47,571 nt of DNA from Peptococcaceae bacterium SCADC1_2_3 (GTDB lineage: Bacteria; Bacillota; Desulfotomaculia; Desulfotomaculales; Nap2-2B), in assembly GCA_000681355.2 (NCBI GenBank), contig JJNX02000009.1, forward strand, positions 1 to 47,571, written 5' to 3'. The notes beneath the pieces were generated by a model, which was not told where the DNA came from, did no database searches, and worked only from the letters and a program-made list of their open reading frames with translations. This document shows, piece after piece, positions 1,188-46,407 of this stretch (the stretch's first letter is position 1; each line of letters opens with the position of its first letter). Both the position numbers and the translations under genes were made by a program.

Positions 1188-1372
1188 GTAAAATATACAG
1201 GTAGGCACATAGGGGCAAACAGTAGGGATTAGGATGTAGGGGCTAGGATGTAGGGGAAACGAAAACGTAGGGGCTAGCTAAATCCTAAATCCTAAATCCT
1301 AAAGAGATCTGCAAGTCTGGCAAAAAAACTTTGTGCCTTTGTGCCTTTGTGCCTACGAACCTAAGTAGTTAC
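1188..1372. repeat. Repeat A copy 1: MITE-like element with inverted ends
   Basis: It begins GTAAAATATACAGGTAGG and ends CCTAAGTAGTTAC, so the ends are imperfect inverted repeats. The outer arms match those of the copy at 15912-16100: left CAGGTAGGCACA-AGGGGCAA, right AGAGATCTGCAA then GGCAAAAAA-CTTTGTGCC. The inner cargo is different: TAGGATGTAGGGGC units on the left and three ATCCTAA units on the right, which can pair with each other. No open frame is present. It ends 30-48 bases before uvrB. Confidence 0.72.
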
Positions 1373-1419
1373 AAAAAATATAGATCCTAAATTTTTAAAG
1401 CGTGGTGCATATTGGCTTG

Positions 1420-3429
1420 ATGTTTCAATTAAAATTACCTTTTCCCTTAAGAGGGGACCAACCAAAAGCAGTTAACGCTCTAATAGAAGGAATTAAAAAG
1501 GGCTACCGCCACCAAACGCTTTTGGGCGTTACGGGAAGCGGCAAAACATACACTATGGCTCACGTTATTCAAACTTTACAAAGGCCCACTCTTGTCCTGG
1601 CCCCAAATAAAACTTTAGCGGCTCAACTTTGCGCTGAATTTAAGGAATTCTTTCCTGATAATGCGGTTGAATTCTTTATTAGCTATTATGACTATTACCA
1701 ACCCGAGGCTTATCTTCCTCAAACAGACACTTATATAGAAAAAGACTCTTCAATTAATGAAGAAATAGATAAATTACGCCATTCCGCTACTTGTTCCCTA
1801 TTTGAAAGGCGAGATGTAATTATTGTAGCTAGCGTCTCCTGTATTTACGGTCTGGGAGACCCTCAGGAATATAACAATTTAGTCCTCTCGCTGCGGCGGG
1901 GGACGGTTTTAAACCGGGAGAAAATACTGCGCAAGCTGGTGGATATTCAATTTGAGCGCAACGACGTTAATTTTACCCGCGGCAAGTTTAGGGTTAAGGG
2001 TGATGTACTAGAAATTTTTCCTATTGCGGCTGAAGATCACGCTATCAGGGTGGATTTTTTGGGGGATGAAATAGAGCGTCTCTTGGAGTTTGACGTCTTA
2101 ACCGGGGAAATTATAGGGGAACGCCAGCATGTTTCCATTTTTCCGGCCAGTCATTACGCGGTATCTTACCAGCGTATGCAGCAGGCTACCCAGAGTATTG
2201 AGGCGGAATTACCCGAAAGACTGGCTGCCTTAAAAAAGCAAGGAAAACTCTTAGAAGCCCAGCGCTTAGAGCAAAGAACTAATTATGATTTGGAAATGAT
2301 GCGCGAAATGGGTTACTGCAAAGGAATTGAAAATTACTCCCGCCATCTTAGCGGACGCTCACCTGGCGAGCCACCTTACACCTTGCTTGATTATTTCCCG
2401 CCAGATTTTTTAATGTTTATTGACGAGTCTCACGTGGCCGTTCCCCAAATCCGGGGCATGTATGAAGGTGATCGCTCGCGTAAAGAAACGCTGGTGGAAT
2501 TTGGCTTTCGCTTGCCTTCCGCTTTTGATAACCGTCCTTTAAAATTTCACGAATTTGAAAGCAAGCTTAGCCAGATTATTTATGTTTCGGCAACGCCTGG
2601 CCCGTACGAATTAGAAAATAGCAAGCAAGTTGTAGAACAAATCATTCGCCCTACTGGTCTGGTAGACCCAGAAATGAAGGTAAAGCCTACCAGAGGACAA
2701 ATTGACGATTTATTTGGCGAAATTACGCAGCGGGTAAACTGCAAGGAAAGGGTGCTTGTTACCACTTTAACTAAAAAAATGGCGGAAGACTTAACCTCTT
2801 ACTTTCAGGAGTTGGGAGTAAAAGTGCGCTATTTACATTCCGAGATTAACGCCCTTGAACGCATGCAAATTTTACGTGATTTGCGCCTGGGAGTTTTTGA
2901 TGTTTTAGTGGGCATCAATCTTTTGCGTGAAGGTCTTGATTTACCCGAAGTAAGCTTAGTCGCTATTCTTGATGCCGATAAAGAGGGCTTCCTGCGTTCA
3001 GAACGCTCTTTAATTCAAACTGCCGGAAGAGCAGCCCGCAATATAAAAGGAAAAGTAATTATGTACGCAGATAGGATTACCCTTTCTATGGAACGGGCAA
3101 TTAAAGAAAGTGAACGCCGCCGCAAAATACAATTGGCTTACAACCAAAAACACCGTATCATTCCCCAATCAATATCAAAAAAGGTCTATGGGGTTATTGA
3201 AGCCACCAGTAAAGTAGCGGAAAGCGAGTCAATTTATCAAGCAAAGACAAAAACCGGTAAATTAACGAAAAAAGAATTAAAACAAACCATTACCCGGTTA
3301 GAAAAAGAAATGCGGGAAGCTTCCCGGAAACTAGAATTTGAAAAGGCGGCCGGGCTGCGAGATTTGCTTATAGAATTACGCCTGGAATTAAGAGGAAAAG
3401 ACAGCCGTTTAATAGCCCAAGCCCAGTAA
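1420..3429 (+). CDS. uvrB: UvrABC system protein B
   Basis: UvrB is the damage-verifying helicase-like subunit of nucleotide excision repair; it is loaded by UvrA and then recruits UvrC. The 669 residues show the family order: GDQPKAV Q-motif near residue 14, Walker A GVTGSGKT near 35, the [10 protein letters not shown] beta-hairpin region, the DESH Walker B, helicase motif [29 protein letters not shown], and a C-terminal UVR domain that contacts UvrC. I chose the ATG at 1420 because it gives the usual MFxLxxP N-terminus; GTG codons at 1402 and 1405 are in frame, and no strong Shine-Dalgarno marks any of them. No uvrA or uvrC is adjacent. Repeat A sits just upstream and may have replaced the native promoter. 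Confidence 0.97.
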
Positions 3430-3476
3430 ACTTAAAACCAATAAATTAAAATACTGATTTTCTCGTCTTTGGTTCG

Positions 3477-3485
3477 TGGTATAAT
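3477..3485 (+). promoter_or_regulatory. Extended -10 promoter upstream of priA
   Basis: TGGTATAAT is a perfect extended -10 (TGN plus TATAAT). There is no good -35 at 17-base spacing, which is normal for extended -10 promoters. It lies 141 bases upstream of priA and could drive priA-def-fmt. The leader would contain the palindrome at 3558-3585. Confidence 0.5.
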
Positions 3486-3557
3486 ATCATTAGTGACTTA
3501 TTTAATTTTTTAACGCGGCCGGTTTTCACAGATTTTAAAGTCCCGTTAAAATATTTT

Positions 3558-3585
3558 GTAGGGACGTTAAATTTAATGCCCCTAC
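3558..3585. repeat. Palindromic repeat, TTAAATTTAA family, copy 1
   Basis: A 28-bp near-perfect palindrome runs from GTAGGG to CCCTAC with TTAAATTTAA at its centre; the two central-flank mismatches are compensated as G/A pairs. The centre matches the palindromes at 5626-5649 and 15691-15708. It lies in the untranslated leader of priA. Confidence 0.65.
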
Positions 3586-3625
3586 ATAAAGTTACTATGA
3601 ACTTTTAAAATCAGGAGGCGGGTTT

Positions 3626-5860
3626 TTGTTTGCCGAAGTATTAGTTAATATCGTCGTTCGCCAGGTAGATAAAACTTTTCTTTACGCCGTTCCTGAAGAA
3701 TTAGAAAATAAGGTGCAAATAGGGGCTCGCGTAAAGGTACCTTTTGGCCGAAGGGCGGCCGATGGTTATGTGGTTGGGCTTAACTCAGACCAACCTGCCG
3801 AAAAGGTAAAAGAAATTACGGCTGTTTTAGACCATGGGCCGTTATTTACCCCTTCCCAACTAGCTTTAGCCCGCTGGATGGCGGCCTATTATTTACGTCC
3901 CACGGTGGAGGCCATGCAAGTAGTTATTGGGCCGCGCCTAAAAGCAACCGTTTGCCGGAAGTTAAAAGAATACTGGCCGGTAAAATCAGACAACACTGAA
4001 ATTTCATCCTCCTTACTCCTTACCCCTAAACAAACTGCCCTATGGCAGGTTGCCCTAACCAACCCCGGTCTTTCCCGGACAAAATTAGCTGCCTTGGCCG
4101 GCGTATCCTCTGGCCTGATAGACGTACTGGTGAAAAAAGGACTATTATCCGAAAGGGTGTATACTGGACCAGCCGGAACTAGCCCGCTGGATAAAACCCC
4201 AAAAAATGAGGTTTTGGTTCTTAACCCGAACCAAAAGGCCGCCTCTGGCCTTATTAACACGGCCATCCAGGCCAAAAATCCCGAGGTCTTCTTGCTTCAC
4301 GGGATAACGGACAGCGGCAAAACAGAGGTATACCTGCAATGCGTACAACAGGTGATTTCTCTAGGAGGCCAGGCCATTATCCTGGTCCCGGAAATTGCCT
4401 TAACACCCCAAATGGTAGACATTTTTTACGCCCGTTTTGGCTCCACCGTAGCTATCTTGCACAGCCGCCTTTCGGCCGGCGAAAGGTTTAATGACTGGAA
4501 CCGGGTCCAAAGTGGGGAAGCCAGGGTAATTTTAGGTACCCGTTCGGCTATTTTTGCCCCGGTAACAGATTTACGCCTGGTGGTAATTGATGAGGAACAC
4601 GAACCATCATACAAACAAGAAGAAAACCCGCGTTACCACGCGCGCACGGTTGCTTTACGTTTAGCCAAACAATACCAGGCAGTAGTAGTATTGGGCAGCG
4701 CTACCCCGTCGCTTTATTCTTATTCCCGTGCTTTATCCGGCGGGCCTTTCCGGTTATCAGAACTCTCTCATCGGGTAGATAGGCGCCCCTTACCAGAAAT
4801 CCGAATTATAGATATGCGCCAAGAAGCAAAGGGGGGAAACCGGCATCTTTTCAGTCAGCCTTTACAGGAAGCAATACAAGACCGTTTAAATAAAAAAGAA
4901 CAGATTATTTTATTTTTAAACCGCCGGGGTTACGCTACTTTTGTTTTTTGCCGGGCTTGCGGTTTGGTCATGAAATGTCCCCACTGTAATATTTCTTTGT
5001 GCTACCATGCAAACAATAATTTAATTTGTCATTACTGTAATTATCTCCTTCCCGCCCCCTCTCTATGTCCTGATTGTCAAGAGCAATATTTGGGCTATTT
5101 TGGCGCCGGAACCCAAAAAATAGAAAAGGAAATAACCCTTCTTTTTCCCCAGGCTAAGGTATTGCGTTTGGACAAAGATACGGTTAGCCGGAAAAATGCT
5201 CACCGGCAAATTATTATGACTTTTCAGGAAGGCGAGGCAGATATCTTAATTGGGACGCAAATGGTGGCTAAAGGATTGGATATACCTGGGGTAACCCTGG
5301 TAGGGGTAATAAATGCCGATATTACCTTACATATGCCTGATTTCCGGGCCAGCGAACGCACCTTTCAATTGCTGATGCAGGTAGCGGGCCGGGCCGGTCG
5401 CAGCAGCAAGGGGGGAGAGGTACTGGTACAAACTTATTCACCGCAACACTACGCCATAGTAGCCGCCCAAAAACAGGTTTATCTGGACTTTTTTCGTCAG
5501 GAAATGATGGTGCGCCGTAAAATGAATTACCCCCCTTTTACTCGATTATGCCGCTTGGTTTTATCCGGCACCGATCCGGACATAGCAGCTAAAGCCGCCG
5601 GTGAACTTGGCGCTAAATTAAAATTAAAGGCGTTAAATTTAACGCCTTTGCAGGAGGAGCAAATAGAAATATTAGGACCCGTGATGGCTCCTTTAGCTAA
5701 AATTAAAGACCATTACCGCTGGCACTTGATTCTTAAGGCCAAAGAGATTACAATTTTACGTGCCGCCGCTCAAATAGCCTTAAACTGGTACGAAGAAAAA
5801 ACCGTTTTAAAGAGGAAAGTAAAGCTTGTGGTTGACCTGGACCCGCAAAATATGATGTAA
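3626..5860 (+). CDS. priA: Primosomal replication restart helicase PriA
   Basis: PriA recognises stalled forks and loads the replicative helicase to restart replication. The 744 residues contain the N-terminal fork-binding domain, Walker A GITDSGKTE (about 230), the DEEH box, motif LGSATPS, and the zinc-binding insert with paired cysteines (CRACG, CPHC, CHYC, CPDC) near 450-495. The helicase C-lobe follows with GTQMVAKGLDIPGVTLVG and QVAGRAGR. The start is TTG, 7 bases after AGGAGG. A perfect 24-bp palindrome of the dispersed family is embedded in frame near residues 667-675 (KALNLTPL), a poorly conserved C-terminal stretch, and adds residues without breaking the gene. def and fmt follow, the usual Firmicute order. 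Confidence 0.97.
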   Translation: MFAEVLVNIVVRQVDKTFLYAVPEELENKVQIGARVKVPFGRRAADGYVVGLNSDQPAEKVKEITAVLDHGPLFTPSQLALARWMAAYYLRPTVEAMQVVIGPRLKATVCRKLKEYWPVKSDNTEISSSLLLTPKQTALWQVALTNPGLSRTKLAALAGVSSGLIDVLVKKGLLSERVYTGPAGTSPLDKTPKNEVLVLNPNQKAASGLINTAIQAKNPEVFLLHGITDSGKTEVYLQCVQQVISLGGQAIILVPEIALTPQMVDIFYARFGSTVAILHSRLSAGERFNDWNRVQSGEARVILGTRSAIFAPVTDLRLVVIDEEHEPSYKQEENPRYHARTVALRLAKQYQAVVVLGSATPSLYSYSRALSGGPFRLSELSHRVDRRPLPEIRIIDMRQEAKGGNRHLFSQPLQEAIQDRLNKKEQIILFLNRRGYATFVFCRACGLVMKCPHCNISLCYHANNNLICHYCNYLLPAPSLCPDCQEQYLGYFGAGTQKIEKEITLLFPQAKVLRLDKDTVSRKNAHRQIIMTFQEGEADILIGTQMVAKGLDIPGVTLVGVINADITLHMPDFRASERTFQLLMQVAGRAGRSSKGGEVLVQTYSPQHYAIVAAQKQVYLDFFRQEMMVRRKMNYPPFTRLCRLVLSGTDPDIAAKAAGELGAKLKLKALNLTPLQEEQIEILGPVMAPLAKIKDHYRWHLILKAKEITILRAAAQIALNWYEEKTVLKRKVKLVVDLDPQNMM
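5626..5649. repeat. Palindromic repeat, TTAAATTTAA family, inside priA
   Basis: A perfect 24-bp palindrome with core GGCGTTAAATTTAACGCC, extended by AAA on one side and TTT on the other. It is read in frame within priA. The same 18-base core recurs exactly at 15691-15708. Confidence 0.75.
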
Positions 5861-15890: not shown

Positions 15891-15911
15891 AGACACAAAG
15901 GTAAATAAATA

Positions 15912-16100
15912 GTAACTATTCAGGTAGGCACAGAGGGGCAATTGATAGTTTTTAGTGGATAGTTTTGAGTTTTTAGTCTCAACATTGGTACTTCCTTTTC
16001 TGTAAACTAAAAACTGTCAACTACCTACTACTAGAGATCTGCAAATAGGCAAAAAACTTTGTGCCTTTGTGTCTTTGCCCCTATGAACCTGAGTAGTTAC
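15912..16100. repeat. Repeat A copy 2: MITE-like element with inverted ends, carrying Repeat B
   Basis: The left end GTAACTATTCAGGT and right end ACCTGAGTAGTTAC form terminal inverted repeats with one mismatch; the pairing continues as GGGGCAA/TTGCCCC. The outer arms match 1188-1372, while the inner part is replaced by Repeat B (15942-16020). The right arm includes CTTTGTGCCTTTGTG, a word common in bacterial intergenic repeats. It lies between the rubredoxin-like gene and miaB. Confidence 0.75.
15942..16020. repeat. Repeat B copy 1 (79 bp), nested in Repeat A
   Basis: The ends TTGATAGTTTTTAGT and ACTAAAAACTGTCAA are 15-base inverted repeats with one mismatch. The whole unit recurs in reverse orientation at 46294-46367, nearly identical apart from a 3-base indel (CAACATTGGTAC here, versus CAACGGTAC in the complement of the other copy). 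Confidence 0.78.
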
Positions 16101-16152
16101 AAGAAATAGATAAAATATGTAAATATTCAGCAACCAGTGAAGGGGTGGCGTT

Positions 16153-17478
16153 ATCCTTTATAAAATAATTACTTTTGGCTGTCAAATGAATGAATATGAC
16201 TCGGAAGTAATGGCCGGCCTTTGTGAGGCATTGGGTTATTTTGCGGCCGAAAAACAAGAGGAAGCCAACCTTATCTTAGTCAATACCTGCTGCGTACGAG
16301 AAAAAGCGGAGAATAAGGTTTACGGCTTGCTTGGCCGCTTTCGTAAACTAAAACAGGCTAACCCGGGCTTAATTATTGGGGTAGGTGGCTGTATGCCCCA
16401 GCAAAAAAATTTAGCCCGGGAAATAAAAAGCCGTTTTCCTTACGTAAACTTTATTTTTGGTCCCCATACCCTTTTTCAACTACCGCAACTCATAAGGCGG
16501 GCTTACGAAAACAAGGAAACAATAATTGCCATTCAAGAAAACCCGGTTGAAATAACCGAAGATAAACCGGTTAAGCGAGTTCATAATGTATGTGCCTGGA
16601 CACCTATTACTTTTGGTTGTAATAACTTTTGCACTTACTGCATTGTTCCTTACGTCCGCGGGCGGGAACGCAGCCGTCAACCGGAAGCAATTCTTCGCGA
16701 GATTAAACAACTGGTAGCCTCAGGTTACAAGGAAATTACCTTATTGGGTCAAAACGTTAATTCTTACGGAAAAGACTTGCCTGACAAAATTGATTTTGCG
16801 GCTTTACTTTCCCGGGTCTGCCAAATTGAAGAACTTATACGCCTTCGTTTTTTAACCTCTCATCCCCGTGACTTTCACCAAAGGCTAATTGAAGAAATTG
16901 CCCGGCAGCCAAAAGTATGTGAGCATATCCACTTGCCTGTTCAAGCCGGGAATAATAAAATTTTAAAAAAAATGAACCGTGGTTATACCCGGGAGGAATA
17001 TTTAGCCTTAATTAAAAACCTCCGGCAAGCAATACCGCAAGTGGCTATTACTACTGACCTTATAGTTGGTTTTCCCGGAGAAACAAACGAGGATTTTCTT
17101 CAAACACTTGATTTGGTGGAAAATGTACGTTTTGCCAGCGCTTTTACTTTTGTTTATAGCAACCGGTCAGGAACCCCGGCGGCAAAGATGCCTGATCAGG
17201 TGCCTGCCGAAATTAAAAAAGAAAGGATTCAAACGCTAATAAAAATTCAAAATGAAATTACCGTAGCCGAAAACCAGGCCGAAATCGGAAAAACATACCA
17301 GGTGCTGGTGGAAGGAAGAAACGAAAAAAATCCTTCTTTGCTGGCCGGCCGAACCAAAACAAACAAACTGGTCTTATTTCCCGCCAGAAAAGATTTAACC
17401 GGTGAGCTAATCCAGGTGAAAATTACCGCCACCACTTTAACCCATTTAGCCGGAGTGGCGCAGGTTACTTTAGTCTAA
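16153..17478 (+). CDS. miaB: tRNA-2-methylthio-N6-dimethylallyladenosine synthase (start codon non-canonical)
   Basis: MiaB is a radical-SAM methylthiotransferase acting on i6A37 of tRNA, next to MiaA, which makes i6A. Three domains are clear: an N-terminal MTTase domain with Fe-S cysteines (FGCQMN, NTCCVREKA, GGCMPQ), radical-SAM CNNFCTYC, and a C-terminal TRAM domain. The first ATG (16186) is the Met of FGCQMN itself and would lose the first cluster cysteine. Upstream to the in-frame TGA at 16138 there is no ATG, GTG or TTG. ATC at 16153 lies 7 bases after AAGGGG and gives (M)LYKIITFGCQMN, so I place the start there provisionally. A one-base homopolymer error is the alternative. Confidence 0.93.
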   Translation: MLYKIITFGCQMNEYDSEVMAGLCEALGYFAAEKQEEANLILVNTCCVREKAENKVYGLLGRFRKLKQANPGLIIGVGGCMPQQKNLAREIKSRFPYVNFIFGPHTLFQLPQLIRRAYENKETIIAIQENPVEITEDKPVKRVHNVCAWTPITFGCNNFCTYCIVPYVRGRERSRQPEAILREIKQLVASGYKEITLLGQNVNSYGKDLPDKIDFAALLSRVCQIEELIRLRFLTSHPRDFHQRLIEEIARQPKVCEHIHLPVQAGNNKILKKMNRGYTREEYLALIKNLRQAIPQVAITTDLIVGFPGETNEDFLQTLDLVENVRFASAFTFVYSNRSGTPAAKMPDQVPAEIKKERIQTLIKIQNEITVAENQAEIGKTYQVLVEGRNEKNPSLLAGRTKTNKLVLFPARKDLTGELIQVKITATTLTHLAGVAQVTLV

Positions 17479-45510: not shown

Positions 45511-45676
45511 CCACCAGTGGTAATAATATTATTTCTCCACTATAACTTAAAAAACCTGCTATTGATATATTTTTCTTTTTGCCTAAATCATTAAAGCAGA
45601 AAACAGGCAGGAAAAAAACCCTTTGTTATGGAATATTTTAAAGTACCAAAATGGAAAGGGGAAGGAAGATTTAACT

Positions 45677-46294
45677 TTGTTTGATTTTTTAACCTCACTG
45701 CTTGAACCGGTAATTAAAGAAACGGTTGCTTTTATAGCTAAATTTGGCTACTGGGGGGTAGCCATCGGCATGGCTATTGAGAGTTGTAACATACCCTTGC
45801 CAAGTGAGGTAATTTTGCCCTTTGGAGGATACCTAGTTTTTACCGGCCGCCTGGTTTTTTTCTGGACAGCTTTAGCTGGTACGGCAGGAGGCACGGTAGG
45901 GTCAATAATTTCGTATTATATTGGTCTTTGGGGCGGACGCCCTTTCTTATTACGTTACGGACGCTGCTTTGGAATTTCCGTACACCATTTTAACTTAGCG
46001 GAAGATTGGTTTTTACGTTACGGTGAAGCAACCGTTTTTTTTACCCGTTTAATGCCTGTTATTCGCACCTTTATTTCTTTACCGGCCGGAATTTCAAACA
46101 TGAATTTTCCGCGTTTTGTTCTTTATACTTTCTTAGGTTCCCTTCCCTGGAGTCTTCTCCTTACCTACCTTGGCTATAAAATGGGTCAGCACTGGGAAAA
46201 CTTAAAGTTTTGGTTCCACCGGCTAGATATATTATTTGTGGTAGGTATAATTGTTTTAATTCTTTATTTATGGCTAAGAAAAAGAAGGAGGTAG
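45677..46294 (+). CDS. DedA-family membrane protein (SNARE-associated/VTT domain)
   Basis: 205 residues with about five membrane segments. It has the family words FGYWGVAIGMAIESCNIPLPSEVILPFGGYLV, then GGTVGSIISYYIGLWGGRPFLLRYGR, and FFTRLMPVIRTFISLPAG with the functional Arg. DedA proteins help recycle or flip undecaprenyl phosphate and other lipids. I use TTG at 45677 after GGAAGGAAGA; upstream codons to 45623 are open but lack a Shine-Dalgarno. The stop codon TAG is created by the junction with Repeat B; without the repeat the frame would read four codons further (YST and stop). Confidence 0.92.
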   Translation: MFDFLTSLLEPVIKETVAFIAKFGYWGVAIGMAIESCNIPLPSEVILPFGGYLVFTGRLVFFWTALAGTAGGTVGSIISYYIGLWGGRPFLLRYGRCFGISVHHFNLAEDWFLRYGEATVFFTRLMPVIRTFISLPAGISNMNFPRFVLYTFLGSLPWSLLLTYLGYKMGQHWENLKFWFHRLDILFVVGIIVLILYLWLRKRRR

Positions 46295-46367
46295 TTGACA
46301 GTTTTTAGTTTACAGAAAAGGAAGTACCGTTGAGACTAAAAACTCAAAACTATCCACTAAAAACTAT
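46294..46367. repeat. Repeat B copy 2 (74 bp), flanked by 13-base direct repeats
   Basis: Reverse complement of 15942-16020 with very high identity. It begins GTTGACAGTTTTTAGT and ends ACTAAAAACTAT. The sequence AAAGAAGGAGGTA occurs exactly on both sides, at 46281-46293 and 46368-46380, as a target-site duplication would. The left copy is the last codons of dedA. Confidence 0.78.
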
Positions 46368-46407
46368 AAAGAAGGAGGTACTCAACTTAAGAAAACCCTA
46401 AACTTTC

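Follow-up and report, generated by a model that had tools for sequence, protein, structure and literature searches.

How can two intergenic repeats have the same ends and different centres? The question is raised by positions 1188–1372 and 15912–16100 of a 47,571-nucleotide stretch (the window) of contig JJNX02000009.1 from Peptococcaceae bacterium SCADC1_2_3. A first-pass annotation had described them as two copies of a non-coding, modular family, here called repeat A, whose conserved arms freely exchange their cores. Its description of the two copies proved accurate: they share their outer arms (58 nt at the right end with 90% identity, 28 nt at the left end with 89%), sequence comparison shows that their centres differ, and they lie upstream of uvrB (1402–3429) and miaB (16186–17478), both genes being confirmed by NCBIfam. 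The features are listed below; IVP stands for the 23S rRNA intervening sequence protein, and the strand assigned to copy 1 is the sense of its IVP remnant.

1188–1372, + strand: repeat A copy 1, putative IVP-cassette deletion derivative with nested core C, upstream of uvrB (from genome matches and the layout of the copies)
1188–1200, + strand: copy 1 left terminal inverted repeat, decayed relative to the end consensus (GTAAAATATACAG)
1219–1303, + strand: copy 1 nested core C, TAGGATG / AATCCTA repeats (core C also occurs without repeat A arms, at L013)
1306–1326, + strand: copy 1 remnant of the IVP gene, GATCTGCAAGTCTGGCAAAAA, encoding DLQVWQK
1327–1359, + strand: copy 1 right arm, TTTGTGCC repeats
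1360–1372, + strand: copy 1 right terminal inverted repeat CCTAAGTAGTTAC
15904–15911, no strand: copy 2 left target-site duplication, AATAAATA
15912–16100, + strand: repeat A copy 2, putative IVP-cassette deletion derivative with nested core B, upstream of miaB; the site is unoccupied in sister genome G002
15912–15924, + strand: copy 2 left terminal inverted repeat GTAACTATTCAGG
15945–16031, + strand: copy 2 nested core B, also found alone
16036–16055, + strand: copy 2 IVP remnant, GATCTGCAA (codons 6–8) followed directly by AATAGGCAAAAA, the 3' terminus of the gene including its stop
16056–16087, + strand: copy 2 right arm
16088–16100, + strand: copy 2 right terminal inverted repeat CCTGAGTAGTTAC
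16101–16108, no strand: copy 2 right target-site duplication, AAGAAATA, 7/8 match to the left one
46283–46370, - strand: stand-alone core B element

Repeat A is a true family with about 60–70 copies in the 2.6 Mb genome that contains the window. The concern that few or no further copies might exist was unfounded, as 53 places in the genome match copy 1 and 60 match copy 2. A 15-bp end pattern gave 74 + 74 hits, compared with 3 + 4 for the reversed control (148 vs 7). Good ends on both sides were seen in 58 candidate copies, a number that includes at least two overlapping pairs, and the elements measure about 85–400 bp. In the best-preserved copies the ends are 13 bp long (GTAACTAYTCAGG) and the 8-bp target duplications are exact. 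Being short, multicopy, bounded by terminal inverted repeats and target duplications and devoid of a transposase gene, repeat A has the properties of a MITE. All 55 copies checked for their context are intergenic and thus lie outside rRNA genes, the location that defines a 23S rRNA intervening sequence (IVS).

The flanks show that these elements have moved. Exact 8-bp direct repeats border 21 of 72 candidate end pairs, and 28 of the 72 have a flanking match of at least 7/8; the corresponding background rates, from mismatched left and right flanks, are 0.117% and 0.86%, and the 72 pairs include some false ones. Flanking repeats of length 7 or 9 stay at background level. A clear duplication is missing in about half of the copies, as would be expected if age and recombination had eroded it. 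Both states are found in the window: copy 2 has a 7/8 duplication, while the left end of copy 1 (GTAAAATATACAGG) is decayed and a clear duplication is absent. Sister genomes supply the corresponding empty sites. The site orthologous to C5:27156 is empty in G002 and retains a single 8-mer between flanks that are 95% identical, the site of C14:16280 is empty with a single 8-mer in three sister genomes, and at window copy 2 the G002 sequence aligns through without the element. The copy on C68 is present in G002 and absent from G003. Some orthologous sites in G001 and G003 hold other insertions and are not readable as simple empty sites.

These data bear on a reading of repeat A as structured RNA, that is, as intergenic hairpins (terminators or processing sites) kept for regulation and without recent mobility. 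The two window copies do fold far better than shuffled sequences (z of -4.6 for copy 1 and -5.7 for copy 2), and the family is always intergenic. Against this stand the insertions documented by target duplications and empty sites, the lack of any Rfam match when the window was scanned with gathering thresholds, and the lack of a clear orientation preference towards neighbouring genes among the copies checked for context. We consider this explanation extremely improbable, although mobile elements of this kind may have a regulatory role as well. The same duplications and empty sites led us to reject REP-type elements (REP/REPIN, mobilised by a RAYT tyrosine transposase), for which no target duplication is expected.

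If repeat A is a transposable family, what are its centres? Most copies share, in one orientation, the segment GGGAAATGAAAACATATAGAGATCTGCAAGTCTGGCAAAAA. It can be read as the start of a gene, with a purine-rich stretch followed by ATG and MKTYRDLQVWQK, and longer copies continue into an IVP protein. The gene scraps in repeat A are those of the IVP (S23, a four-helix-bundle protein; PF05635). Pfam PF05635 has 19 matches in the genome, most of which are truncated copies within repeat A arms. One is a full-length gene (L049, G000:C16:9129-9446), which from its flanking sequence appears to lie inside a 23S rRNA gene; it has GTCGGA-type arms without GTAAC ends. Fragments in the genome, like the proteins of the cassettes from UBA4049 and L233 described below, match the PF05635 / TIGR02436 profiles above the curated cut-offs. 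Among the 58 two-ended copies, codons 5–12 are kept in 33, the 3' end of the gene (ERMLSSLIRKLSSK-stop) in 9, and the middle or larger pieces in 7. The label "non-coding" therefore does not fit the probable ancestor, which would have carried an IVP gene, and the free exchange of cores is contradicted by the 33 copies that retain the same codons of one gene.

The junctions hint at the way in which the gene was lost. The sequence GGCAAAAA occurs in IVP codons 10–12 and, in L039, again right after the stop codon, and short copies have one GGCAAAAA at the junction. This suggests that the gene was lost by deletion between these direct repeats. The junction in copy 2 differs (GATCTGCAA joined to AATAG), so that at least two deletions would be needed. 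A sister species has a near-complete but frame-broken IVP between repeat A ends, with both gene ends present (L162). An intact type-A IVP cassette was not found in the genus, nor an intact mobile insertion cassette in the window's own genome.

Two further kinds of copies were noticed. Many copies (L019, L024, L026 and L051-L056) are hybrids, in which the IVP is cut after ...EGYGRNS and followed by a second left arm without GTAAC; the junction is identical in every one of them, which points to one rearranged founder that multiplied. In L045, L036 and L037, an extra small hairpin (GGGGCAGACC...GGTCTGCCC type) is located near the right arm.

As had been noted in the first pass, each centre is itself an inverted repeat. 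Cores B (15945–16031), C (1219–1303) and D (AGGCTGT repeats) are palindromic, and each is also found outside repeat A arms; core B stands alone at 46283–46370. This stand-alone copy overlaps the last codons of an upstream UptA/DedA-like frame (45623–46294) and seems to provide its stop codon. Core D in turn derives from an IVP cassette: where D-type copies stand alone, on C17 and C32, they still contain IVP codons that PF05635 recognises.

The existence of several core types between like arms, with cores B and C spanning nearly the same stretch between the left arm and GAGATCTGC, is what a modular non-coding family would show if its conserved arms exchanged unrelated cargo by recombination. 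However, IVP scraps are found in most copies of all core types. Moreover, all copies of one composite type have the same junctions, and B, C and D composites bear their own 8-bp duplications, so that whole composites must have moved. Most B composites are 93–95% identical to the window copy. We therefore regard exchange by recombination as very unlikely. Apparently, and as the simplest reading of the junctions, the three nested element types each inserted once and the composites were then amplified. A survey of cargo and flanking duplications thus confirms nesting, a variety of core types and 8-bp duplications, but the centres share ancestry and owe their diversity also to nested insertions. 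On this reading, intergenic repeats with seemingly swapped cores would all go back to a single cassette that lost its gene and took up nested elements.

Gene-bearing cassettes with the same ends as repeat A are found in UBA4049, a Firmicutes bacterium of the same family (its IVP matches record DFZT01000096). About 20 identical or near-identical IVP gene ends break its assembly, and the full IVP frame was assembled from overlapping contig ends. Three pairs of broken halves could be rejoined by their 8-mers (L141/L146, L142/L153, L143/L147), and three gene-deleted copies on single contigs have exact duplications. A scan of GTDB representatives with the UBA4049 IVP revealed relatives with 68–99% identity in many phyla, a host range that may be inflated by binning errors of metagenome bins. 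In 10 of the 80 retained IVP loci both ends are within two mismatches of GTAACTACTCAGG, compared with a best value of three mismatches in any locus for the reversed control. Single-contig IVP cassettes with repeat A-type ends occur in several phyla, some with exact 8-bp duplications (L233 and L241 in Desulfobacterales/Desulfobacteraceae, L209 in Ignavibacteria) and one, in Planctomycetes (L248), with a 7/8 duplication. The clearest case is L233, in which duplication, end, arm, a 118-codon IVP, complementary arm, end and duplication follow each other within 453 bp. With an intact passenger gene, IS-type ends and no transposase gene, it corresponds to a mobile insertion cassette. The IVP in end-bearing cassettes is under purifying selection, with a dN/dS of about 0.1 in close pairs (e.g. 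0.012/0.155, and 0.053/0.533 between Desulfobacterales and Planctomycetes bins). The UBA4049 IVP had no relative in phage records and only distant cyanobacterial ones in plasmid records.

Repeat A-type ends are lacking in L049, in L139 and in most of the 80 IVP loci. The rRNA insert (L049) and L139 show that our finding explains part of IVP mobility, not all of it. In L139 (G009:C76:1-700), an IVP with CTGTCAACT-type arms and no GTAAC ends lies in an apparent type III DNA methyltransferase gene; the arms of core B resemble these arms. A tree of 78 IVP proteins (117 columns) is poorly resolved, with end-bearing copies scattered and at least four changes forced by supported branches, and therefore does not tell gain of the ends from their loss.

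The arms themselves appear to be conserved in pairing rather than in sequence. In 22 IVP loci with differing repeat units (21 of relatives and one of this genome), the best match of an upstream arm is mostly the downstream arm of its own locus, with a mean of 17.2 for the own partner and 8.5 for other loci. Hairpins of rRNA intervening sequences are cut by RNase III (PMC4990558), and by analogy we infer that cutting of this type may occur at the intergenic cassettes.

The ends of repeat A begin with GTAA, as do published IS66 ends (PMC12888890), and GTAACTAYTCAGG agrees with the ends of IS66 elements in L296, L298, L306 and L180. Duplications of 8 bp, the length seen for repeat A, flank the IS66 elements of L296, L181 and L069, and IS66 elements with 8-bp duplications have been tabulated (PMC3281130). 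The best example is L296, from another genome of the phylum, with the ends GTAACTACTCAGGTCACC / GTAACTACTCAGCCACCC and the exact duplication ATTGATTT. L298 has GTAACTACTCAGGT and L306 has GTAACTATTCAGGT at both ends, and L180 has GTAACTACTCAGGC and GTAACTACTCAGCC; no duplication was seen at these three elements. The window's own genome contains two IS66 copies with GTAANNATTCAGT ends where readable, one of them with the duplication TATAGCTC. An IS66 copy with exact repeat A ends was not found in this incomplete genome, whose own IS66 ends read GTAANNATTCAGTG. From the match of the ends and the duplication length we infer that an IS66-family transposase made elsewhere would mobilise repeat A in trans. 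In L296, a second gene (2934–3809) matching DruA (PF14236, a Druantia protein) adjoins the IS66 transposase, and L069 has a similar frame. In other genomes of the same order, short elements that end in GTTACTATTCAGGT / GTAACTACTCAGGA are numerous (L173-L176; G052, G029).

It could be argued that the IVP element moves itself by means of its protein and hairpin arms, as was suggested for rRNA intervening sequences in 1993, and that the IS66-like ends are a mere resemblance. Purifying selection on the IVP in end-bearing cassettes, arms that pair with their own partner despite differing repeat units, and the existence of end-less IVP elements, hence of another way of moving, would all fit. But copies without an intact IVP have exact duplications, so the protein is unnecessary in cis, and IS66 elements agree with repeat A in their ends as well as in the 8-bp duplication length, in one case (L296) exactly. 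A self-mobile IVP element is thus highly improbable.

We are confident that repeat A consists of miniature IS66-type elements descended from a mobile IVP cassette, with mobilisation in trans, deletion and nesting as probable parts of their history. The ancestor would have comprised a 13-bp end (GTAACTAYTCAGG), an arm of short tandem repeats, the IVP gene, a complementary arm and a second 13-bp end. The cassette would have no transposase gene, its ends being recognised by an IS66 enzyme supplied from elsewhere, and each insertion into intergenic DNA would duplicate 8 bp. Most copies would then have lost the IVP by internal deletion between the GGCAAAAA repeats; other palindromic mini-elements would have nested once each, and transposition of the composites as units would give the look of exchangeable cargo. 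When transcribed, the arms could fold into a long hairpin like that of rRNA intervening sequences, which may render the insert harmless. A broader proposal is that IS66-ended cassettes are the general dispersal form of the IVP, that the protein and the arms make insertions tolerable (or help targeting) at the RNA level, and that the rRNA IVS, known since 1990, is a second, end-less state; we consider it rather unlikely.

The function and origin of S23/IVP remain unclear according to PMC4990558, which cites the ideas of a transposition remnant (1990) and of a mobile element (1993); the question of how IVS/IVP move has stood since the 1990s. The gene is now seen in elements with transposon ends, duplications and empty sites, and in several phyla. 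Repeat A provides one concrete route by which an rRNA-insert gene can move within and between bacterial genomes, and a partner transposase for IVP cassettes can now be named and tested. The IVP also resembles Avd of diversity-generating retroelements (PMC10053308).

MITEs and IS66-type mobile insertion cassettes are already known as a kind: cassettes that lack a transposase form an accepted class of their own (PMC3281130), and IS66 carriers of passenger genes have been described (PMC12888890). Open-access literature on the end sequences, on TIGR02436 and on S23 with MITE or MIC contained no description of elements like repeat A: neither a link between IVP and IS66 cassettes, nor arms of tandem repeats, nor a family of nested deletion products was found there. 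Repeat A resembles TIMEs (PMC4133298), miniature elements with inverted repeats that derive from Tn3, give rise to mosaic non-autonomous transposons and take their transposase from elsewhere, but differs from them in being linked to another transposase family and in having an IVP. With IS66 elements and the non-autonomous forms derived from them (MITEs, mobile insertion cassettes, and tIS66 with passenger genes) it shares GTAA ends and 8-bp duplications, whereas the gene that it carries codes for an IVP and is enclosed by complementary arms of tandem repeats, and most of its copies are deletion and nesting products. With the 23S rRNA IVS that contain an S23/IVP frame (PMC4990558) it shares the PF05635/TIGR02436 protein and the complementary arms around the gene; unlike them, it is intergenic and multicopy, with IS66-type ends and 8-bp duplications.
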